Shown here one piece after another: positions 12,342-26,181 of a DNA stretch of 64,000 bases (position 1 is its first letter; each line of letters starts with the position of its first letter). Origin of the DNA: a virus. The notes beneath the pieces were generated by a model, which was not told where the DNA came from, did no database searches, and worked only from the letters and a program-made list of their open reading frames with translations. The DNA lies in the IMG/VR virus record IMGVR_UViG_3300035670_000009, positions 1 through 64,000 of that record, one strand, 5' to 3'. A program made the position numbers and the translations under genes.

Positions 12342-12893
12342 TCAGCGCGCAGCTTGTTGCGCAAACTGCTGCGCCGCCCCGGTGTAATTAAACGGCTTGG
12401 CCGACGACGTGATGCCCGGCAACAAATCCCACATCGGCTTCTGATAGCCGACTCGTGCAAGCTGCGCTGTTTGCCCAGCGTTCAACGCAACGGGCGCGCC
12501 GCCGCGTAAAACCTGCACGCCGTTGACCAGAGTCCGACTCGGCTGCGCTACGCCATTGATAGTCTGCGTGATGTGATTGAGCTGCGGCGTGTGAATCATG
12601 GCGTTGTGCATCGTGTGCCCGCCGCCCAAGAGCGCCAGGCCCGTGACAGCTGGCTTGACGACGCGGTCCATAGCAAGCTGTTTGAGCTTTGTGCCCATAG
12701 GCGTGACAGGCGCCCGGCCGGTGACCATCTGCGTGGCCTTTTGCATGAGCGTAGGCTTTGGCGCAGCCACGGCAAGCCGTTTGAAAGCAGGCGCCAGAGA
12801 ATGACCCAGCGCATCGAGCAGAGCTTGCTTTTCGCGCGGGCTTGTTTGCGCGCCCAGAACGTAGCCGAACTCGTAAGCTGACAGCGCGCTCAT
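12342..12893 (-). CDS. Virion-associated-type protein, function unknown
   Basis: A 183-residue protein starting MSALSAYEFGYVLG, with no enzymatic motif I recognise. The N terminus is the sort seen on head- or internal virion proteins of large phages. The middle contains a short glycine-rich hydrophobic stretch (VTGLALLGGGH) that could be membrane-interacting. The gene overlaps the upstream 969-residue gene by ATGA, so translation of the two is coupled. Its stop is directly followed by the moron promoter at 12311-12339. Confidence 0.7.
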   Translation of the reverse strand: MSALSAYEFGYVLGAQTSPREKQALLDALGHSLAPAFKRLAVAAPKPTLMQKATQMVTGRAPVTPMGTKLKQLAMDRVVKPAVTGLALLGGGHTMHNAMIHTPQLNHITQTINGVAQPSRTLVNGVQVLRGGAPVALNAGQTAQLARVGYQKPMWDLLPGITSSAKPFNYTGAAQQFAQQAAR

Positions 12894-15799
12894 TTTTTGC
12901 TCTTCTCTTTTTTCTGCCTGTCGGCCTTCGACTTCGATGCGGACTCTGACTCGTCGCGGTCAGAGTTGCTGTCTTCCGGCTTGTCGTCAGCGTACGTTCC
13001 CTTGCGCCGGGCTGCTTGCAACAGGCCATAAGCCTTGCCGCCGACCAGGCCAGCCAGTGCGCCATTCGGGCCGCCCAGCATTTTGCCCGCGTAGCTGCCG
13101 TACCCAGCAGGCAAAACTTTCTGCCGGTCGTGCAGAATCTCGTTGAGCTTGTTGGGCTTATCGCCGAGCGCCTTACGCAACGCCCGCTCAGAGCGCTGAT
13201 TTGCATTGGCCTCGTGAAGCAACGACACGAGCGGAATCTTGCCCGCCACGCTGTACAGATCTCGCTGGAGGCCCGTGCCCTGACGGCGCAACCAGGTAAG
13301 CAACTTGTTCTTGCCGGGCTCGTACTCGGGGACTTTCTTTGCGTTAAAGTCTAGCGCGTGGCCCAGCTCGTGTGAAAGCGCCGCAGGATTATTGCCGTAA
13401 AGATATGTGCTGTCGGAGAACGGGTTATAAGCGTTGCCGCGCGTCAGGGCCGTCGCGAGATAGCTCAGCGGCAACGAAGCGGTGCCAATTGCTTTGCCTG
13501 CAACGCTCGTACGGGGATTGGTCATCGTGCGCTTGATTTCCCGAAAGAAGCGCGGGCCGCCAAGATACACCTGATGATTACTCAAAGCTTGCGGGTCAGC
13601 CTGCGCCATGGTTTGCGCCAGCGCTTTCATTTTCTGCGCGCGAATGTCTTCTGGCGCAGCCTCGGGGTCAGTCACGCCCGCTGCGCCAGTCCAATCGGTT
13701 GGATTCACATGCAGCTGCGGCGAGAGAATGAGATTGCTGGGAAAGCCGCCGAGGTGCCCAAGCGTACTGCTCAGCGCCATGGCAGGCAGACCGCCGCGGG
13801 ACACGTCGATAGATATCTTTTCAGCCTGCGCGGCGCCGCGTGCAATAGCGAACAAGTCACACGCTGACTTTGGACGAATGCCCTGCAGCTGGCCCCACGT
13901 TGTCGCCTTCGTTGGCACATCGCCAAAGAACGACACAAACTCGCCCGTGCCGTACGACGAGGGAATACGCCCGGCAGCTTGGCCCACGCGTGTATAGCGC
14001 TGCATGGCTTTGCTCATTGCTGCCTGCGCGGCTTCAGTGTCGCCGAACCTGCGGAACATGTGAATGCCGTCGGGCATGCGCAGGCGCGTCGTGGGCGGCG
14101 CGATGGGGCGCGGCGTTCGGTTCCACAGAAACTCTGCCAGCTCGCTTAGCCTGGCCCCTGGTACCGCCTCGCGACGTGCAGCAGACAGCGCGGGCAATAC
14201 AGACGGATGCGCCGTTGACATACTCAGGACTTTTTTAGCCGCTGTTTGCGCTGCGCCAGCTACGCGAGAAGGCAACGCGGGCGCAGCTTCGCGGCCAAAG
14301 ATACCCGCCATCGTGCCCATGCGGCTGCTGAGATTTCGCGTCAAGTCGGTCATGAAGTTGGCAGACTTTTCACTCTGCGCAAGACCAGCTAGGACAGCCA
14401 GGTCTGTTACAGAACCGCATTTGCAGTTCCACTTACGCAAAGATTTGTTAATGCGCGAGTCGGGGTCTGATTTCGTTTCACTTCCCGTGTTCACGCGTTT
14501 CATGCCGCACATGCGCGCACAGAACGAATTTTGGCGCTTCTTACGCTCGCCGCTGGGGTTGCTCTCAGTGACGGGCGGCTTGAGATTCCCGCCGTGCGCT
14601 TTCTCGTAGCTCTTGCGGCCTTTTTCATTCAGGCCGCCTTCGGGGTTCTTGCCTTCGCTGCGCTGCCATGCGGGACTCGCTGCGCCTTGTTTCGCAAGCG
14701 CCGCCTCGATGAGCTGGCGCATCTCGGGCTTGAGCTGGCCCATGTGCGAGAACTCGAGTCTATTTGGCTGCTCCATGACGTGCATGCCGCGAATAGCCTT
14801 GAGCTTGCGCTTGTACTTGGGCACGTCTTCGCGCAGCACATAGGGATCCCGATCGAAGATTCGGCGCAGCCAGCCAGGCGGCTTGTCTACAACGTCGACG
14901 CCGTGCGTGTGCCCGTAGCGATATGCGTTGCCCACGTCGACGAGACCTTCGGCGCCGTACCAGCCGGGCATCTTTTCATCATTGCCGCCCAGAATGCTCG
15001 TAATCCCAGCGGTCTTTGAGCTATCAGGCGAGTTCTTCTGGCCGAACGCCGCGTTGCCATTGAGCTGGCCCTTGGCGCCCAGTGGCCCAAACGCCTGGAT
15101 GGGATTGTGCTGCGGATTCGAGCCGCCGCCGACCGGGCTGTTACTGGGTTGCGGCATACCTTGCTGCGCTGTTTGGGCGCCCTGCGCAGCTGACGCATTC
15201 GCCGGGGCGTTAACCGTACCCATGGGGGGCGTAATGTACGGAGACGGAATCGAGTACCTCTTCAACCCCATGTTTTGCGGGACAAAACGCGGCTCTCGAC
15301 CCTCGGCCAACGCTTGCGCAGTTTCCATTTCATTGCGAAAAGGCTTCGCCAAAACAGTGGAAATCTTTGCAAGCAAACTTTGCGCCGCCTCTTTATCGCA
15401 CTCTTCACGCTCACGCGATTCAGACTGCGAAGACTCGGCGTTGTCTAACTTTTGCTCGCCCTGCTCACGTTCTTGTCCGGCATACGTGGGTTTGTCGCTG
15501 TGGGGAATGTCCACTTTGACCAACGAATCCATAGCCGTTTTAGCGTTGGCGCTACCTTCTGTATTGCATATTAAAAAGGCACCGTTGCCCGAAAATTGTG
15601 CAAGCCCGGCCGAAAGAGCCGCGAGAGCGGCAGCTTTTTCTTTGCTATTGGCGCTGGGCTTTTTCTGGTCGTGGTCTTTCTTATCGGCGTACATCGGCAG
15701 ACCCTTGTTGGATTCGGGGTACTCATGCGCCCAACGTTTGGCGATGTCGGGATGCGCTGCCCATAGAAAACGGCGCTGCTTCTCAGACTGAAATGGCAT
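12890..15799 (-). CDS. Large virion-associated-type protein with HELGH metalloprotease motif
   Basis: A 969-residue protein. The N terminus (MPFQSEKQRRFLWAAHPDIA) is a conserved start found on many phage structural proteins. Around residues 400-470 it has GGLNEKGR, LKPPVTESNP and SFCARMCGM followed by NKSLRKWNCKC, a small conserved phage domain whose database name I will not guess. Near residue 815, LSHELGHALDF is a zinc-metalloprotease HExxH signature. The C terminus is Lys/Ser-rich. I infer a virion protein that may be proteolytically active on capsid or host proteins. Contains palindrome box 6. Confidence 0.78.
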   Translation of the reverse strand: MPFQSEKQRRFLWAAHPDIAKRWAHEYPESNKGLPMYADKKDHDQKKPSANSKEKAAALAALSAGLAQFSGNGAFLICNTEGSANAKTAMDSLVKVDIPHSDKPTYAGQEREQGEQKLDNAESSQSESREREECDKEAAQSLLAKISTVLAKPFRNEMETAQALAEGREPRFVPQNMGLKRYSIPSPYITPPMGTVNAPANASAAQGAQTAQQGMPQPSNSPVGGGSNPQHNPIQAFGPLGAKGQLNGNAAFGQKNSPDSSKTAGITSILGGNDEKMPGWYGAEGLVDVGNAYRYGHTHGVDVVDKPPGWLRRIFDRDPYVLREDVPKYKRKLKAIRGMHVMEQPNRLEFSHMGQLKPEMRQLIEAALAKQGAASPAWQRSEGKNPEGGLNEKGRKSYEKAHGGNLKPPVTESNPSGERKKRQNSFCARMCGMKRVNTGSETKSDPDSRINKSLRKWNCKCGSVTDLAVLAGLAQSEKSANFMTDLTRNLSSRMGTMAGIFGREAAPALPSRVAGAAQTAAKKVLSMSTAHPSVLPALSAARREAVPGARLSELAEFLWNRTPRPIAPPTTRLRMPDGIHMFRRFGDTEAAQAAMSKAMQRYTRVGQAAGRIPSSYGTGEFVSFFGDVPTKATTWGQLQGIRPKSACDLFAIARGAAQAEKISIDVSRGGLPAMALSSTLGHLGGFPSNLILSPQLHVNPTDWTGAAGVTDPEAAPEDIRAQKMKALAQTMAQADPQALSNHQVYLGGPRFFREIKRTMTNPRTSVAGKAIGTASLPLSYLATALTRGNAYNPFSDSTYLYGNNPAALSHELGHALDFNAKKVPEYEPGKNKLLTWLRRQGTGLQRDLYSVAGKIPLVSLLHEANANQRSERALRKALGDKPNKLNEILHDRQKVLPAGYGSYAGKMLGGPNGALAGLVGGKAYGLLQAARRKGTYADDKPEDSNSDRDESESASKSKADRQKKEKSKK
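13809..13820. repeat. Dispersed palindrome box 6 (ATAGATATCTTT)
   Basis: Copy inside the 969-residue gene, encoding EKISID. Confidence 0.8.
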
Positions 15800-15885
15800 G
15801 GCGCGCTTTCTGCGTTAAAGATCGTTGTATCTTCGCAAAACGCGTGCGCTACGGCAACGGCCAGAGTGTACGAGAGCGCTGATAG

Positions 15886-15926
15886 CAAAAGGAAAGCGGG
15901 AGGCCCGGGGACCGTAGCCCCCGGGC
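15886..15926 (-). terminator. Factor-independent terminator
   Basis: Stem GCCCGGGG/CCCCGGGC (15903-15910 with 15919-15926), then minus-strand CCGCTTTCCTTTTG. Ends the cassette of the 151-residue gene. Confidence 0.8.
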
Positions 15927-15975
15927 GCTCCACGTCTTTCCTCGCGATGAGGAGCAGCCGCGTGACCGCATGGCA

Positions 15976-16431
15976 CTAGGCCTGGGCCAGACCGCCCTGC
16001 GCGCAGATCTGCTGCACGTCGGCCGGGACCTGCTGGGCCTGCGCCTCGGGGGCGTAGAAGCCCTGCATGACGCCGCGGCTGAGCGGGTTGCTGCTGACCG
16101 CGGTGCCCGCCTTGGTCGTGACGTCGAGGACGGCCCGGGCGCTGCGGCCGATGCCGTAGCCCGTGACCTCGACGCCCTTGACCGCCGCGTCCGCCGTCAC
16201 CGTCGCGGCCGTGATGGCCGTGTCGGCGATGAGACAACCGGCGTCGAGCACCGCGCCGGTGGCGACCACCGCGCAGCCCGTGGTGAAGTTGCCGACCTTC
16301 GCGACGCCCTCCACCACCTTCTTGTCGCCACCGGAGCGGCGCAGGAGGTAGGACGCGACGGCGACGGTGCCGACGGCGATGGCGACCTTGGTGGCGGACT
16401 TGGCGAACAGGTTGCTGATGACGTGGAGCAT
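15976..16431 (-). CDS. Ala/Gly/Val-rich probable membrane protein, unknown
   Basis: A 151-residue protein starting MLHVISNLFAKSATKV at 16431. The N terminus has a hydrophobic helix (VAIAVGTVAVASYLL), and a second hydrophobic stretch follows (GCAVVATGAVLDAGCLIA). Small-residue repeats could pack as glycine-zipper helices. No family is recognised. The gene is strongly GC-rich compared with the flanking virion genes. It stands alone between promoter 16544-16572, leader RNA copy C and terminator 15886-15926. Confidence 0.75.
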   Translation of the reverse strand: MLHVISNLFAKSATKVAIAVGTVAVASYLLRRSGGDKKVVEGVAKVGNFTTGCAVVATGAVLDAGCLIADTAITAATVTADAAVKGVEVTGYGIGRSARAVLDVTTKAGTAVSSNPLSRGVMQGFYAPEAQAQQVPADVQQICAQGGLAQA

Positions 16432-16537
16432 CTGATTCCTCGAGTGTTAAGCTCGAGGTCCCAGTGGAGACAGATGGGTTTTCTAAGCCCAGGTTTCGGC
16501 CTTGTGGATCACCCGTCCACAACAGCTATATCTGCTC
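16432..16537 (-). promoter_or_regulatory. Structured leader RNA, type C/D (copy C)
   Basis: A ~106-nt leader. Seen: outer stem TGGAGCAGA/TCTG-T-CTCCA; hairpin TTGTGGA/TCCACAA with loop CGGGTGA (16509-16515); hairpin GGGCTT/AACCC; and a last hairpin CCTCGAG/CTCGAGG whose 3' strand contains the ribosome site GAGG just before the ATG. Aligned with copy D, stems change in compensating pairs. The start region appears sequestered, so translation is probably switched by refolding or binding. Confidence 0.8.
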
Positions 16538-16543
16538 CATCTC

Positions 16544-16572
16544 ATATGCCGGGTTTTTGGCTGTTATTTAGC
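16544..16572 (-). promoter_or_regulatory. Promoter GCTAAA-N17-GCATAT
   Basis: GCTAAA at 16567-16572 and GCATAT at 16544-16549 with 17 bases between. It feeds leader C and the 151-residue gene. Confidence 0.8.
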
Positions 16573-16640
16573 TCGCCCCAGATCATATGCGTAATACACC
16601 GTTTTGCGCACGTTTACGCATATGCGCGGGGCGCTGATAG

Positions 16641-16684
16641 CAAAAGAAAACCGCACGCCAGCGGCCCTGCAGACCGCCAGCGTG
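16641..16684 (-). terminator. Factor-independent terminator of the orphan RNA
   Basis: Stem CACGC/GCGTG with an inner GCGG/CCGC stem (16654-16684), then minus-strand CGGTTTTCTTTTG. It closes the transcript that starts near 16948. Confidence 0.75.
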
Positions 16685-16948
16685 GTTCTCTTCGTTGGAG
16701 TTTCACCAACACCCCGTTTCTTTCCGGTTTCCCGGTTCAGCCTTTCGGCAACCCCGCGAGGGGCGAGTGAGTTTCTCGACCGTAAGCACCTGCTAAGACG
16801 GCAGGCCCTTACGGATTTGGTCGGCCTCAGTCGACCTATACGGCGCTCGTCTTCCCGAAGCCAGGGAAAACTCGGGCTACTCACATGCCGTCACATATGA
16901 GTAACCGTAGCGCCGCTTGGACTATCAGTGCAATATGATAATCCAGGT
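16641..16948 (-). ncRNA. Orphan structured RNA (~300 nt), no coding gene
   Basis: Promoter and terminator bracket ~300 nt without a convincing ORF but with dense pairing: GGATTATCA/TGATAGTCC; CGGCGCT closed by AGCGCCG; TTCCC/GGGAA; GGTCG/CGACC; CCGTAAG..CCTGC with GCAGG..CTTACGG; and a chain of short hairpins, CCCC-TCGC-GGGG, GCC-GAAA-GGC, CCGG-GAAA-CCGG and GTTGG/CCAAC. It does not match RNase P, 6S, tmRNA or a group I/II intron core as far as I can tell. A 7-nt linker segment (16764-16770) can pair with the CGGGUGA loops with one G-U. Function unknown; a trans-acting regulator is one possibility. Confidence 0.72.
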
Positions 16949-16954
16949 CATTTA

Positions 16955-16983
16955 ATATGCCGGAGTTTTGGCCGGTATTTAGC
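16955..16983 (-). promoter_or_regulatory. Promoter GCTAAA-N17-GCATAT
   Basis: GCTAAA at 16978-16983 and GCATAT at 16955-16960, 17 bases apart. It drives the orphan RNA; no start codon with a ribosome site follows. Confidence 0.8.
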
Positions 16984-17005
16984 TCGGCGTTCAGCGCGCT
17001 AATAG

Positions 17006-17053
17006 CAAAAGGAAACCGGGCGGCCGGGACCCGAAGGCCCCGGCGCACCCGGT
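17006..17053 (-). terminator. Factor-independent terminator with nested UUCG hairpin
   Basis: Outer stem ACCGGG/CCCGGT and inner GCCGGGGCC-TTCG-GGTCCCGGC, then TTCCTTTTG on the minus strand. Over ~48 bases it is the same sequence as the terminator at 17852-17900. Confidence 0.88.
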
Positions 17054-17099
17054 GTGAGTGCTGTATTTGCTAACGCGCCCAGCAAGGCGCGGTCGGAGT

Positions 17100-17702
17100 T
17101 CAGTCGCAGGCCGCGGCGGTTGCGGCCATGTCCGGCGCCACTTCGGCGCCAAACATGCACCCCGCCGCATCGAGGGCCTGCATGAGGCTCTCGATGTTCA
17201 GGAACTCTGACCTGGTATCGGTCCCGGTCTTCCACGCGAGCTCGCAGCTCGCGACGTCCCAGGCCTTGTAGCCGACCTGGTTGAACGTCAACTTCACTTC
17301 CACGGACCTGTTTTTGGTCCACGTGCCCTCCCACCAGAGCATTAGCTCGGTGGGCGCGACGAGGCAGCAGCCGTCCTCGTCAAAGTCGGGCTCGCAGCTC
17401 GTGCCGCCCGACGCCACGAACCCTCCGCGGGGCGGGTCGAAGACGCCGTCCTCCGCCTCCGCGGCGGAGCGGAGGATCCGGCGGGCCTCGGCCGCGATCA
17501 CGGCCGGGTTCCAGGTACCCGTCTCGGGCAGCTGGATTGCGCGGATTAACGGGTCGAGCCGCTGCCCGATCAGCCCGGCCCAGTAGGCCAAGAGAACGGG
17601 CAGCGCCCGCCGGACGTTGTCCGGCACCTCGGAGGCGTATGCCTCCGAGGCGAACCAGCCCAGCTTACCCTCTCTGTACTGGTCCGGAGCGAAGTTGAAC
17701 AT
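17100..17702 (-). CDS. Cassette protein of unknown function (200 aa)
   Basis: A 200-residue protein starting MFNFAPDQYREGK at 17702, directly below leader copy D. It is GC-rich and soluble-looking, with several cysteines in the second half (TSCEPDFDEDGCCL, then VASCELAW). The segment VGYKAWDVASCELAW resembles LGYAAWDAAVEHQMAL in the next cassette protein, so the two may be distant relatives. No known domain is recognised. A longer ORF extends upstream to 17747 but would run through the structured leader, so I reject it. Monocistronic. Confidence 0.72.
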   Translation of the reverse strand: MFNFAPDQYREGKLGWFASEAYASEVPDNVRRALPVLLAYWAGLIGQRLDPLIRAIQLPETGTWNPAVIAAEARRILRSAAEAEDGVFDPPRGGFVASGGTSCEPDFDEDGCCLVAPTELMLWWEGTWTKNRSVEVKLTFNQVGYKAWDVASCELAWKTGTDTRSEFLNIESLMQALDAAGCMFGAEVAPDMAATAAACD

Positions 17703-17809
17703 TTGATTCCTCGGGCGGTAAGCCCGAGGCTCCAGTGGAGTCAGCATGGGTTTTCTAAACCCAGGTTTCAGCTGCGCGGATCACCCGTCCGCAACAGCTA
17801 TAGCTGCTC
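17703..17809 (-). promoter_or_regulatory. Structured leader RNA, type C/D (copy D)
   Basis: Outer stem GTGGAGCAGC/GCTG-A-CTCCAC; inner AGCTG/CAGCT; hairpin GCGGA/TCCGC with loop CGGGTGA (17781-17787); hairpin GGGTTT/AACCC; and last hairpin CCTCGGGC/GCCCGAGG holding the ribosome site GAGG before the ATG. Compared with copy C, CAGC/GCTG replaces CAGA/TCTG, GCGGA/TCCGC replaces GTGGA/TCCAC, and the last stem also covaries. Confidence 0.82.
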
Positions 17810-17815
17810 CACGTT

Positions 17816-17844
17816 ATATGCCCGAATATGCCCAGGTATTTAGC
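17816..17844 (-). promoter_or_regulatory. Promoter GCTAAA-N17-GCATAT
   Basis: GCTAAA at 17839-17844 and GCATAT at 17816-17821, 17 bases apart. A second GGGCATAT lies between the boxes, 10 bases upstream of the -10-like box. It abuts the terminator of the preceding cassette. Confidence 0.8.
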
Positions 17845-17851
17845 ACTGATA

Positions 17852-17900
17852 GCAAAAGGAAACCGGGCGGCCGGGACCCGAAGGCCCCGGCGCACCCGGT
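17852..17900 (-). terminator. Factor-independent terminator with nested UUCG hairpin
   Basis: Same stem-loop as 17006-17053 (outer ACCGGG/CCCGGT, inner UUCG hairpin), followed by TTCCTTTTG. It ends the 149-residue gene. Confidence 0.88.
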
Positions 17901-17930
17901 TTGCATCCGACGAGAACAGAATTGATTGCG

Positions 17931-18380
17931 TCAATCGACGAGGCACCCGCCCCGGTTGTTGACGCTCCATTTCCAGCCCGCCCGGGCCACGCGGGCCAGC
18001 GCCATTTGATGCTCCACAGCCGCGTCCCAGGCTGCGTAGCCCAGGTCCGCGATAGGGACCTCAAGCGCAGCCGTGGTCTCGTCGTGGGCAGCGCATAGCG
18101 CCGCCCAGCGCTCCTCTTGTTCCTCGTAAGAGCCGACGACTTGGTCCATTTCGACGGCCCAGGCGGCCGCCTTGGTCTCCTGGTCGGAGACCGGAGCCTG
18201 GTCTAACCAGGCCCACGGCATGACCTCCGGATGGAAGTCAGCCGGGTCCTCGGCGTCTTCGAGGGGCTGAAGCCAGAACGTCCCCGTCCGGTCGACCGGC
18301 AGGACTTTGCCCCGCTCGATGACGCTGAGGATCGTGAGCACCAGGCACGCCGCCAAAGGAACCAGAACGAAACCAGCCAT
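17931..18380 (-). CDS. Membrane-anchored cassette protein, unknown (149 aa)
   Basis: A 149-residue protein. Residues 1-22 form one hydrophobic helix (FVLVPLAACLVLTILSVI), so it is probably a single-pass inner-membrane protein with a cytoplasmic or periplasmic helical body rich in Trp, Ala and Glu. Near the C terminus LGYAAWDAAVEHQMAL resembles a segment of the protein at 17100-17702. The start at 18380 follows AGGAGG, which overlaps the pseudoknot of leader copy B. Family unknown. Autonomous unit with promoter 18468-18496 and terminator 17852-17900. Confidence 0.75.
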   Translation of the reverse strand: MAGFVLVPLAACLVLTILSVIERGKVLPVDRTGTFWLQPLEDAEDPADFHPEVMPWAWLDQAPVSDQETKAAAWAVEMDQVVGSYEEQEERWAALCAAHDETTAALEVPIADLGYAAWDAAVEHQMALARVARAGWKWSVNNRGGCLVD

Positions 18381-18461
18381 GATAGTGGCCTCCTAGGTAT
18401 TCACAGCTTGCATCGCTCACCCGGCAACGCTGCAGCAAGACCCGCATACCTAGACGGGACT
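18381..18461 (-). promoter_or_regulatory. Structured leader RNA, type A/B (copy B)
   Basis: Hairpin CCCG/CGGG with loop CTAGGTAT (18446-18453), hairpin GCGTTGC/GCGATGC (two G-U pairs) with loop CGGGTGA (18417-18423), and ATACCTAG (18393-18400) that pairs with the first loop over 8 bp as a pseudoknot. The ribosome site AGGAGG (18389-18394) overlaps the pseudoknot strand. This is the geometry of a translational switch. Confidence 0.8.
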
Positions 18462-18467
18462 CATTAC

Positions 18468-18496
18468 ATATGCCCGGGAAACGCGCTGGCTTTAGC
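18468..18496 (-). promoter_or_regulatory. Promoter GCTAAA-N17-GCATAT
   Basis: GCTAAA at 18491-18496 and GCATAT at 18468-18473, 17 bases apart. A palindrome box (18500-18511) sits immediately upstream. Confidence 0.8.
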
Positions 18497-18499
18497 CGA

Positions 18500-18511
18500 A
18501 TAGATATCTAT
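18500..18511. repeat. Dispersed palindrome box 7 (ATAGATATCTAT)
   Basis: Perfect palindrome just upstream of a GCTAAA-type promoter and beside the array of four hairpins. Confidence 0.85.
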
Positions 18512-18977
18512 TGACTGACTGCCTTGCTGAGAGCAGTCGGACTGCGCTCGTGAGAGCAGTCGGACTGCCTTGCTGAGAGCAGTCGGACTGCGCTCGTGAG
18601 AGCAGTCTGCGTTGCTGCGCGGGCATGTACCAGATTCCAGAAAATGGAAAATGCGCCGTAAGTGTTTTATACGCATGGACTTACGGCACATATTTTTTGC
18701 GAAACACGTAAGTCTTTTGCTGCCCACATGTTGCGCAGTAAATGCTTTTGTTTTGTCAAGCTGTTTGGCTGTAAAAACCACTGCTCGTGTATCCGTAGCG
18801 CGGCCTGTTTTATTGTTTTGCCCAGCAATACCGCAAAAACAGTAATTTTTTGGATACACGGGTATGTATGAAATAGCTGAAGATTGTGTACACAATGCGC
18901 AGTTTGGCAGGCTTCGCAAGTTCCGCAGTTCGCGAATCGCGAATCTTCGTTCCTGCTGCCCCAAAAACCGCCAATAG
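18512..18977. other. Gene-free palindrome-rich region, candidate origin or control region
   Basis: About 450 bases with no supportable gene and, by eye, lower GC than its surroundings. It holds four tandem 22-base hairpins (18517-18607), inverted repeat GCCGTAAGT/ACTTACGGC (18655-18687), a 75-base hairpin closed by CGTGTATCC/GGATACACG with inner CTGTTTT and TATTG stems (18786-18860), a 14-bp perfect palindrome ATTGTGTACACAAT (18883-18896) and TTCGCGA-A-TCGCGAA (18929-18943). It lies between a terminator (18978-19026) and a promoter, so it may be little transcribed. A replication origin or a protein-binding locus fits best; this is inference. Confidence 0.55.
18517..18607. repeat. Four tandem hairpins, exact 23-base period
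   Basis: Each unit is GACTGC-N10-GCAGTC, starting at 18517, 18540, 18563 and 18586. Two alternating loops (CTTGCTGAGA and GCTCGTGAGA) show that a 46-base pair of units was duplicated. Confidence 0.9.
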
Positions 18978-19026
18978 CAAAAAGAAACCGGGCGGCTGGA
19001 GCCTCGACGGCCCCAAACACGCCCGG
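18978..19026 (-). terminator. Factor-independent terminator ending the small-gene run
   Basis: Outer stem CCGGGC/GCCCGG (18988-18993 with 19021-19026), inner TGGGGCC/GGCTCCA, then minus-strand TTTCTTTTTG. Related in sequence to the cassette terminators. Confidence 0.85.
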
Positions 19027-19051
19027 CGTTCTCTACGCAGATTTCGCCGGA

Positions 19052-19252
19052 CTACTTTGCGTTCGCCGCAGACGACATTGCGACAAGAGTGATCTCCATG
19101 CCGCATTTGTCCGCGAACTTTCGAATTTCCCGCGGGTGTTTAAACCCGTGTAGGTCGCAAAACACGCTGAACAGATAAGGGAAATACCCTTCTTTTCCTG
19201 GCCAGCGCTGCATCGCGTCTTTCAACACCTCAGCGCTGGCCTCTTCCGTCAT
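19052..19252 (-). CDS. Small protein of unknown function (66 aa)
   Basis: Starts MTEEASAEVLKDAM at 19252, overlapping the upstream TGA as ATGA, which is why I reject the longer ORF to 19378. The sequence is mixed and soluble (YFPYLFSVFCDLHGFKHP), without a recognised motif. It is the last gene of the small-gene run, followed by the terminator at 18978-19026. Confidence 0.65.
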   Translation of the reverse strand: MTEEASAEVLKDAMQRWPGKEGYFPYLFSVFCDLHGFKHPREIRKFADKCGMEITLVAMSSAANAK

Positions 19253-23130: not shown

Positions 23131-23203
23131 TGCGGCCCCCGGGAATCGAACCCGGAACCGAGGGATTAAAAGTCCCTTGCTCTGCCGATTGAGCTAGAGC
23201 CGC
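23131..23203 (-). tRNA. tRNA-Lys (anticodon UUU)
   Basis: Complete cloverleaf: acceptor GCGGCTC/GGGCCGC with one G-U, D arm GCTC/GAGC, anticodon stem AGGGA/TCCCT with loop CTTTTAA, T arm CCGGG-TTCGATT-CCCGG. CCA is not encoded. Confidence 0.93.
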
Positions 23204-23210
23204 GACCGAA

Positions 23211-23283
23211 AGCCAGCGGCCGGGAACGATCCGGCGACCTACGGTTTACAAAACCGTTGCTCTACCAATTGAGCTACGCTGGC
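23211..23283 (-). tRNA. tRNA-Thr (anticodon UGU) with atypical T loop
   Basis: Acceptor GCCAGCG/CGCTGGC, D arm GCTC/GAGC, anticodon stem ACGGT/ACCGT with loop TTTGTAA, T stem GCCGG/CCGGC. The T loop reads ATCGTTC in place of TTCRANY, so the usual T54 and A58 are missing. CCA not encoded. Confidence 0.88.
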
Positions 23284-23301
23284 AAATTCCACAATCAATT
23301 A

Positions 23302-23661
23302 TGGAGGCGCCGGGAATCGAACCCGGGTCCAGTGATGTTTCAGAACAAACGTCTACGTGTGTATTTGGTCAACTTAAATCTCGTCTGTGCGCCCCCGGCC
23401 AACAGGGTGCAGCACAGACCAGCCTAGAACTTGTTTAGCCGCGACCGTACCAGGCGGTGAATCGCAGCGAGTCGGATTTGACGACCGCTTAGAAAGCCCT
23501 CCCGACTGGAGCTAACTTTGCGGGCTGCTGATTTTTAGATCAGGCAGCGAGAGCAAGCGGAGCGCCGGTTAAGCACTCAATCGACTTTTAACGTGGCCCG
23601 TCGATCAACCACGACACGCAATCTGAACCTCATGTCATCCTGTCGAAACCTTTTCGCCCCC
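23302..23661 (-). ncRNA. ssrA: tmRNA
   Basis: A 360-nt RNA. The 5' end GGGGGCGAAAAGGTTTCGAC is the classical tmRNA start and pairs with the 3' end CGCCTCC (one G-U). The tRNA-like domain has T arm CCGGG-TTCGATT-CCCGG, discriminator A and no encoded CCA. About 90 nt in, a frame reads SIECLTGAPLALAA then TGA; LALAA-stop matches the usual proteolysis-tag end, but the resume codon is uncertain. Pseudoknot-like stems fill the middle. It would rescue stalled ribosomes and tag the products. It sits with two tRNAs in the small-gene run. Confidence 0.9.
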
Positions 23662-25704: not shown

Positions 25705-26181
25705 TCAGGAACCGACCCTGAAGACTTCAGGAACCAGGCCGATGGATCGGCCATAAATGGCGACTGAGTCTCCGGGATAAACCCGGCGCGAAACATCGTC
25801 TGTTTCCAGGTTATTGACCTGGACACGCCGCATGATGATCAATTCACGCGCCGTCGACGTGTCGCAGTCGTTCTTAGCCGCCACGAAGTCGACAAGCGAC
25901 TGCGCCTCGGACAGCGCCTGGTACTCGGCCAAGGCCGCCGGGTGACGCTGCAGCACGGCCAGCGCCTTGTCGAGCCGCCCGAGCGCTTCAGCGTGGAGCT
26001 TGTGCAGGTTGCGGGCAACACTCATCATGTTGCCCGCATTCTGCAGAAACACGTCGAGGTCGTCGATTTCGTGGGCCGCGATCGGCACCGTGAAATCGCC
26101 GTCGTATACTTTCGGCAACGACTGCTCGAGACGAATCAAGGCGGCCTTACATCTCTCAAATTGGTCATCAATCATCGCCAT
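25705..26181 (-). CDS. Helical phage protein of unknown function (158 aa)
   Basis: Starts MAMIDDQFERCKAALIRLEQ at 26181, overlapping the upstream gene by 14 bases. Mostly amphipathic helices (NLHKLHAEALGRLDKALAVL), ending in a small beta-type region (YPGDSVAIYGRSIGLV). No recognised domain. The 190 bases below it contain a degenerate tRNA-like segment (see rejected items). Confidence 0.7.
   Translation of the reverse strand: MAMIDDQFERCKAALIRLEQSLPKVYDGDFTVPIAAHEIDDLDVFLQNAGNMMSVARNLHKLHAEALGRLDKALAVLQRHPAALAEYQALSEAQSLVDFVAAKNDCDTSTARELIIMRRVQVNNLETDDVSRRVYPGDSVAIYGRSIGLVPEVFRVGS

Follow-up and report, generated by a model that had tools for sequence, protein, structure and literature searches.

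The unit at positions 16641-16950 raises the question of what a phage cassette carries when it has a promoter and a terminator and no protein gene between them. The DNA analysed here, referred to as the window, covers the opening 64 kb (64,000 nucleotides) of a 203,910-base (204-kb) virus record. Judged from its DNA polymerase, UvsX, terminase-like and tail-fibre genes, the source virus is a large tailed phage. When its DNA polymerase was compared with those of named phages, identity was below 60% throughout, and 80% coverage was reached in 3 records only. Approximately 40 related contigs were found in IMG/VR, several of them close to 200 kb. A search of IMG/VR with a terminator-tail pattern returned 3 extra family contigs besides G034, and its remaining matches were one recurring, apparently coding sequence from an unrelated, AT-richer phage group.

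Anatomy and setting of the cassette unit

We examined the signals that bound the unit, all on the minus strand. The promoter at 16955-16982 consists of CTAAATA at -35, 14 nt, and GGCATAT at -10. Exact copies of the form GCTAAATA...GGCATAT were found at 16983-16955 and 16572-16544 on this strand (0.00 expected in shuffles), with a third promoter copy at 17847-17810. Across the window and the related contigs there were 93 promoter-like sites with 0-3 mismatches, and the consensus in relatives, CTAAAT[AT]-N14-GG[CT]ATAT-N4-TG, occurs dozens of times. The family promoter has sigma70-type spacing but a different -35 box (CTAAAT), and no sigma70-like promoter was found by consensus within 15800-19100. 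At the other end, an intrinsic terminator (16643-16693) has a long GC-rich stem at 16684-16654 followed by a T-run. It carries the terminator tail TTTTCTTTTGCTATCAGCGC (16631-16667; repeat D2), a five-copy repeat that closes the cassettes and recurs in relatives, where the family terminators have a common tail of the form TTT..TTTNGCTATCAGCGC. The original prediction of an orphan unit with the promoter and terminator of the protein cassettes was thus borne out. From these signals, the transcript would start at about 16950-16948 and end at about 16643. It was also noted that GCTATCAGCGC stands 3' of the terminator U-run at 16631-16641 and at other cassette ends and is conserved across the family, while its reverse complement, GCTGATAGC, often stands before the CTAAATA of the promoter. 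The pair is a possible protein-binding or recombination site.

The unit occupies one slot in a series of one-gene cassettes that is hypervariable and lies between the tmRNA and a large conserved gene (12890-15799). The tmRNA, tRNA-Thr and tRNA-Lys lie at 23131-23661, and the tmRNA and the two tRNAs were the only Rfam matches at gathering score elsewhere in the window. A cassette slot usually contains one small orphan protein gene. The upstream neighbour (17100-17847, minus strand) has a promoter, a structured leader and a 215-aa ORF without a family, and in the downstream neighbour (15976-16575, minus strand) a promoter and a leader, the latter homologous to its upstream counterpart, precede a 151-aa ORF, also without a family. 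These two leaders (17746-17844 and 16474-16572, minus strand) are structured, 80% alike and share CGGGUGA, and a similar CGGGTGA element was seen in leaders at 18475 and 12318.

No ATG, GTG or TTG start preceded by a Shine-Dalgarno motif was found on the transcribed strand of the unit. An 81-codon GTG frame is present that lacks a Shine-Dalgarno motif and reads through the terminator, and its product matched no PHROG or Pfam family, in agreement with the original reading of the unit as having no gene. Behind 77 of the 82 distinct family promoters, an ORF start with a Shine-Dalgarno motif follows within 185 nt (median 72), whereas the promoter at 16955-16982 has none ahead of its terminator. 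We therefore considered whether the unit is an overlooked small protein gene. Micro-ORFs do occur in cassettes: in G002, a unit with a 26-codon micro-ORF fills the slot that precedes the conserved large gene. However, this coding unit does not fold strongly (z -1.9) and the window unit does, and the lack of both a Shine-Dalgarno-led ORF and a family match makes such a gene extremely unlikely. From its fold and the absence of such an ORF, the unit from 16950 to 16641 (minus strand) very probably represents a gene for a non-coding, orphan RNA of approximately 308 nt. In G040 the corresponding slot holds other small ORFs. Because the contents of the slot differ in G002 and G040, the window RNA is an optional, lineage-specific item.

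Fold strength, strand bias and secondary structure

The unit folds at -156.6 kcal/mol, compared with -113.9 +/- 5.7 kcal/mol in shuffles (z -7.5), and none of 100 shuffles folded as well. When the terminator was left out, the transcribed strand scored z -6.6 versus -3.9 on the opposite strand. The RNA locus ranked first among 214 sampled 254-nt segments (mean z -0.7, sd 1.6), and the first 120 nt of the transcript had the lowest score (z -9.7) among 74 promoter-proximal segments of the phage family. Because ORF-internal stretches of the window near 17401 and 25801 also reach z of about -6 (-5.2 on a re-test at 25801), fold strength alone cannot rule out coding. On the transcribed strand the body helices contain 9 G.U pairs and 0 A.C mismatches, whereas the best fold of the opposite strand has 2 and 3, respectively. 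This bias points to selection on the predicted RNA and not on a DNA palindrome, and it was ranked as supporting evidence only because folding itself favours pairs.

These measurements bear on two alternatives in which the RNA would have no role. The unit may be a decayed or chimeric protein cassette, with the promoter and terminator left behind, the ORF lost or replaced and the RNA idle. Such a history fits the hypervariability of the locus, with its micro-ORF in G002 and other small ORFs in G040, and the lack of conservation of the window RNA. However, a decaying gene would not be expected to outfold nearly all of the window or to show strand-biased wobble pairs, and no remnant ORF with any family match was present, so that we regard this history as unlikely. 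The second alternative is a DNA-level element, in which a hairpin-rich spacer between promoter and terminator promotes cassette recombination. The promoter and terminator modules repeated around every cassette are in its favour, as in the PeSL modules of T4-like phages. The shared, recombination-prone sequence, however, is the promoter and the terminator, with the 260-nt body between them unique, and the strand bias of the wobble pairs also argues against a purely DNA-level function, which appears quite improbable.

The predicted structure begins with a 5' domain at 16840-16944, read on the minus strand like all elements that follow, with pair probabilities of 0.98-0.99. It contains hairpin P1 (16944-16919) and a three-way junction, P2 (16916-16840), that includes P2a (16906-16875) and P2b (16871-16849). 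Hairpins P3 (16836-16819) and P4 (16814-16780) follow with pair probabilities of 0.96-0.99. A 3' row of short hairpins at 16694-16777 has the loops AAACUCA, UCGC, GAAA, GAAA and UGAAACU, with pair probabilities of 0.75-0.99 for the first four and 0.98 for the last. The weakest structural part is the closing helix ACCU/GGGU, with a pair probability of about 0.67 and a rival closure, GACCU/AGGUC; both lie within about 5 kcal/mol. The string of hairpins with GAAA and UCGC loops that was originally described therefore holds, and the overall closure of the RNA is uncertain.

Several motifs were considered and set aside. GAAAC occurs four times (P 0.0015 for this word) and was considered as a repeated protein-binding site, yet 13% of shuffles repeat some 5-mer four times. 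A tRNA-like 3' end, suggested by a T-arm-like hairpin followed by GAAGAGAACCA, was rejected on inspection, as GAAGAGAACCA pairs with the terminator U-run and no matching 5' acceptor strand was seen. As a CRISPR-repeat mimic, the RNA offered nothing beyond a weak look-alike hairpin. A Csr/Rsm sponge would have many AGGA or ANGGA sites in hairpin loops, and the RNA body contains 0 of either.

Homologue searches and structured RNAs in related phages

A search of Rfam 15, including GOLLD, ROOL, OLE, 6S, RNase P, tmRNA and introns, returned no family at gathering score at the locus. A permissive search gave a best E of 0.18 with scores far under gathering, and the earlier failure to place the RNA among known families was upheld. 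Using blastn, no credible match was found in 50,697 phage and 72,556 plasmid records. Against 38 relatives, nearly all blastn matches were the shared terminator tail and the remainder were short and at chance level. With nhmmer across 1.8 Mb of relatives, the window RNA matched itself alone, as did single-sequence covariance models of both halves in 41 related contigs (42 records). Scans of IMG/VR and GTDB genomes with two degenerate patterns gave no match, and neither did the use of neighbour proteins as anchors for relatives. Because single-sequence models and exact patterns lose sensitivity beyond moderate divergence, the failure to find a homologue is no proof of absence. The missing homologue, and with it the missing covariation for the window RNA itself, counts against an accessory RNA gene. 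The window RNA is assigned to no RNA family, the searches and comparisons for membership having returned none.

GOLLD and ROOL, large structured RNAs encoded by phages and prophages, are frequently located close to tRNA islands, and many GOLLD members exceed 800 nt (PMC12286853). Like them, the window RNA is phage-encoded and non-coding, has many helices and lies in a region with a tmRNA and tRNAs. It differs in having approximately 308 nt and no Rfam match. Compared with GOLLD, which has a conserved 3' region besides its length of more than 800 nt in many members, no covariance-model match was obtained. An ornate self-assembling or catalytic RNA, GOLLD/ROOL-like or a ribozyme, would suit the ornate fold and the nearby tmRNA and tRNAs, and loop-loop contacts are possible between the complements GACG/CGUC and GCUUC/GAGGC present in the RNA. 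Complements that short, however, are expected by chance, and the absence of an Rfam match and a length below that of the many GOLLD members over 800 nt (PMC12286853) leave this alternative with a low probability.

We sought family promoters without a near ORF. Among the 82, these were the promoter of the window RNA, two loci in G012 that are also present in the near-identical G014, and one locus in G011; the fifth outlier on the list, the promoter-like site L117:4308, immediately precedes the second G012 RNA. The G011 unit (G011:135241-135852, equal to L178 15852-15241, minus strand) is an orphan non-coding unit of approximately 600 nt with the family promoter and its own terminator. It lies directly before the same conserved large gene as in the window phage, was found nowhere else among 42 records and had no Rfam match. 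The first G012 RNA (G012:12143-13149, equal to L117 144-1150, plus strand) is approximately 1 kb long, has the family promoter and no credible ORF, and ends in the T-arm-like GCCGGGTTCGATTCCCGGC. The second (G012:16391-17104, equal to L117 4392-5105, plus strand) is approximately 0.7 kb long with a 25-nt long-range closing helix; neither had a credible Rfam match. A 0.5-kb homologue of the second was found in G041 (L210 1752-2250, plus strand; nhmmer about 1e-30). The G012, G014 and G041 RNAs stand before a small ORF and hence may be long leaders.

In the consensus structure of the G012/G041 RNA, 40 of 122 pairs were changed on both sides yet kept, versus 1-5 doubly changed pairs when partners were slid by 1-4 columns, a contrast that is inflated since the structure was derived from those same two sequences. 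As a comparison of two sequences, the 40 double changes are a strong covariation signal, and the G012/G041 RNA is probably a new RNA family. The G011, G012/G014 and G041 RNAs fold at z -5.3 to -9.5 in sense versus -3.8 to -4.6 in antisense, the margin being small for G011 and G041. Three of these relatives' RNA sequences were tried by blastn and had no match in known phages. We also found an orphan RNA of approximately 115 nt conserved between G034 and G039 (L111 7482-7375, minus strand; L201 31-145, plus strand), in which the terminator stem varies but is kept and the GACGAACACCC loop is invariant. This RNA, too, stands behind the family promoter and folds strongly in sense.

None of the relatives' RNAs showed sequence similarity to the window RNA, and covariance models from the window RNA and from the G012/G041 core gave no cross-match; kinship between these two RNAs was rejected, as neither search supported it. 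The G000, G011 and G012 RNAs all lie upstream of the conserved large gene and near it. Structured RNAs of 0.5 to 1 kb, with one of approximately 0.11 kb, are a recurrent cargo behind the family promoter, and this recurrence raises the prior for the window RNA being functional. A new RNA class, as suggested earlier, would require at least one more member, and blastn, nhmmer, covariance models and pattern scans found none. Given the different structured RNAs behind the same promoter in related phages, the window RNA is better viewed as a single case of a type of RNA cassette that recurs.

PeSL (promoter early stem-loop) modules of T4-like phages were reportedly described by Arbiol in 2010 and Comeau in 2014. 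They are promoter-terminator cassettes that shuffle orphan genes (cited in PMC4503421). The window cassettes resemble that description in their repeated promoter and stem-loop terminator units around orphan genes and in their shuffling region (repeats D2 and D5). They differ in that the T4-type promoter is early (host-like sigma70) while theirs has CTAAAT at -35, and in that a structured RNA makes up the promoter-terminator interval of the window unit. To our knowledge, it is new for a shuffling cassette to carry a structured RNA as cargo, with unrelated RNAs likewise in relatives.

Proposed role of the window RNA

Our preferred reading, to which we give a probability of roughly 45%, is that the window RNA is a free-standing, trans-acting accessory RNA that likely binds a protein or RNP of host or phage origin. 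Transcription from the family promoter would yield a compact, untranslated RNA with many helices, occupying a slot of the fast-turnover cassette row in place of a small orphan protein gene. The folded RNA would most likely work in trans, serving its protein or RNP as a ligand or decoy, and it would belong to the optional host-adaptation set of the phage. We infer the transcription of the unit, its timing and its partner, and the host-adaptation role likewise.

A trans-acting RNA could instead be a base-pairing sRNA directed at host messages or at phage messages such as those of the neighbouring cassettes, and its size, its own promoter and its intrinsic terminator all fit. However, the unpaired segments are short, and against the leaders of the neighbours and 173 phage translation-start regions, a comparison that covers phage targets only, they paired no better than shuffled segments. 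We consider an sRNA of this kind rather improbable, and the earlier proposal of a regulator of the neighbouring cassettes found no support in the comparison with their leaders. A role as ligand of a protein or RNP is favoured because helices make up most of the RNA and its loops are short and lack pairing to phage start regions.

The optional genes of phages are commonly thought of as encoding small orphan proteins. A wider and more tentative proposal, which may be correct but which we hold with some doubt, is that the cassette locus of this ~200-kb phage family is a store of rapidly replaced, unrelated structured RNAs of 0.1-1 kb ("RNA ORFans"), each of which acts in trans and independently on a host component, with 16641-16950 as the free-standing 0.3-kb example. 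If cassettes also carry fast-turnover folded RNAs, a class of phage factors would be missed by protein-based annotation, and such RNAs would also escape Rfam, since Rfam needs conserved families. The family-specific promoter would offer a direct route for finding them, by listing promoters without an ORF behind.

Two further features were noted. An intergenic stretch of approximately 480 nt in the window (18495-18975) contains tandem palindromes (GACTGC...GCAGTC) spaced 23 nt apart and longer inverted repeats, and G040 has a resembling stretch at the corresponding place. In L112 (11642-10830, minus strand) and L116 (12838-12160, minus strand), a cassette has a structured leader followed by a 75-aa ORF and, after it, a tRNA-like element, ACCTC...CTGGGTGCAATTCCCAGCGAGGT, that was reported by neither ARAGORN nor Rfam; related cassettes occur in L113, L114 and L115.
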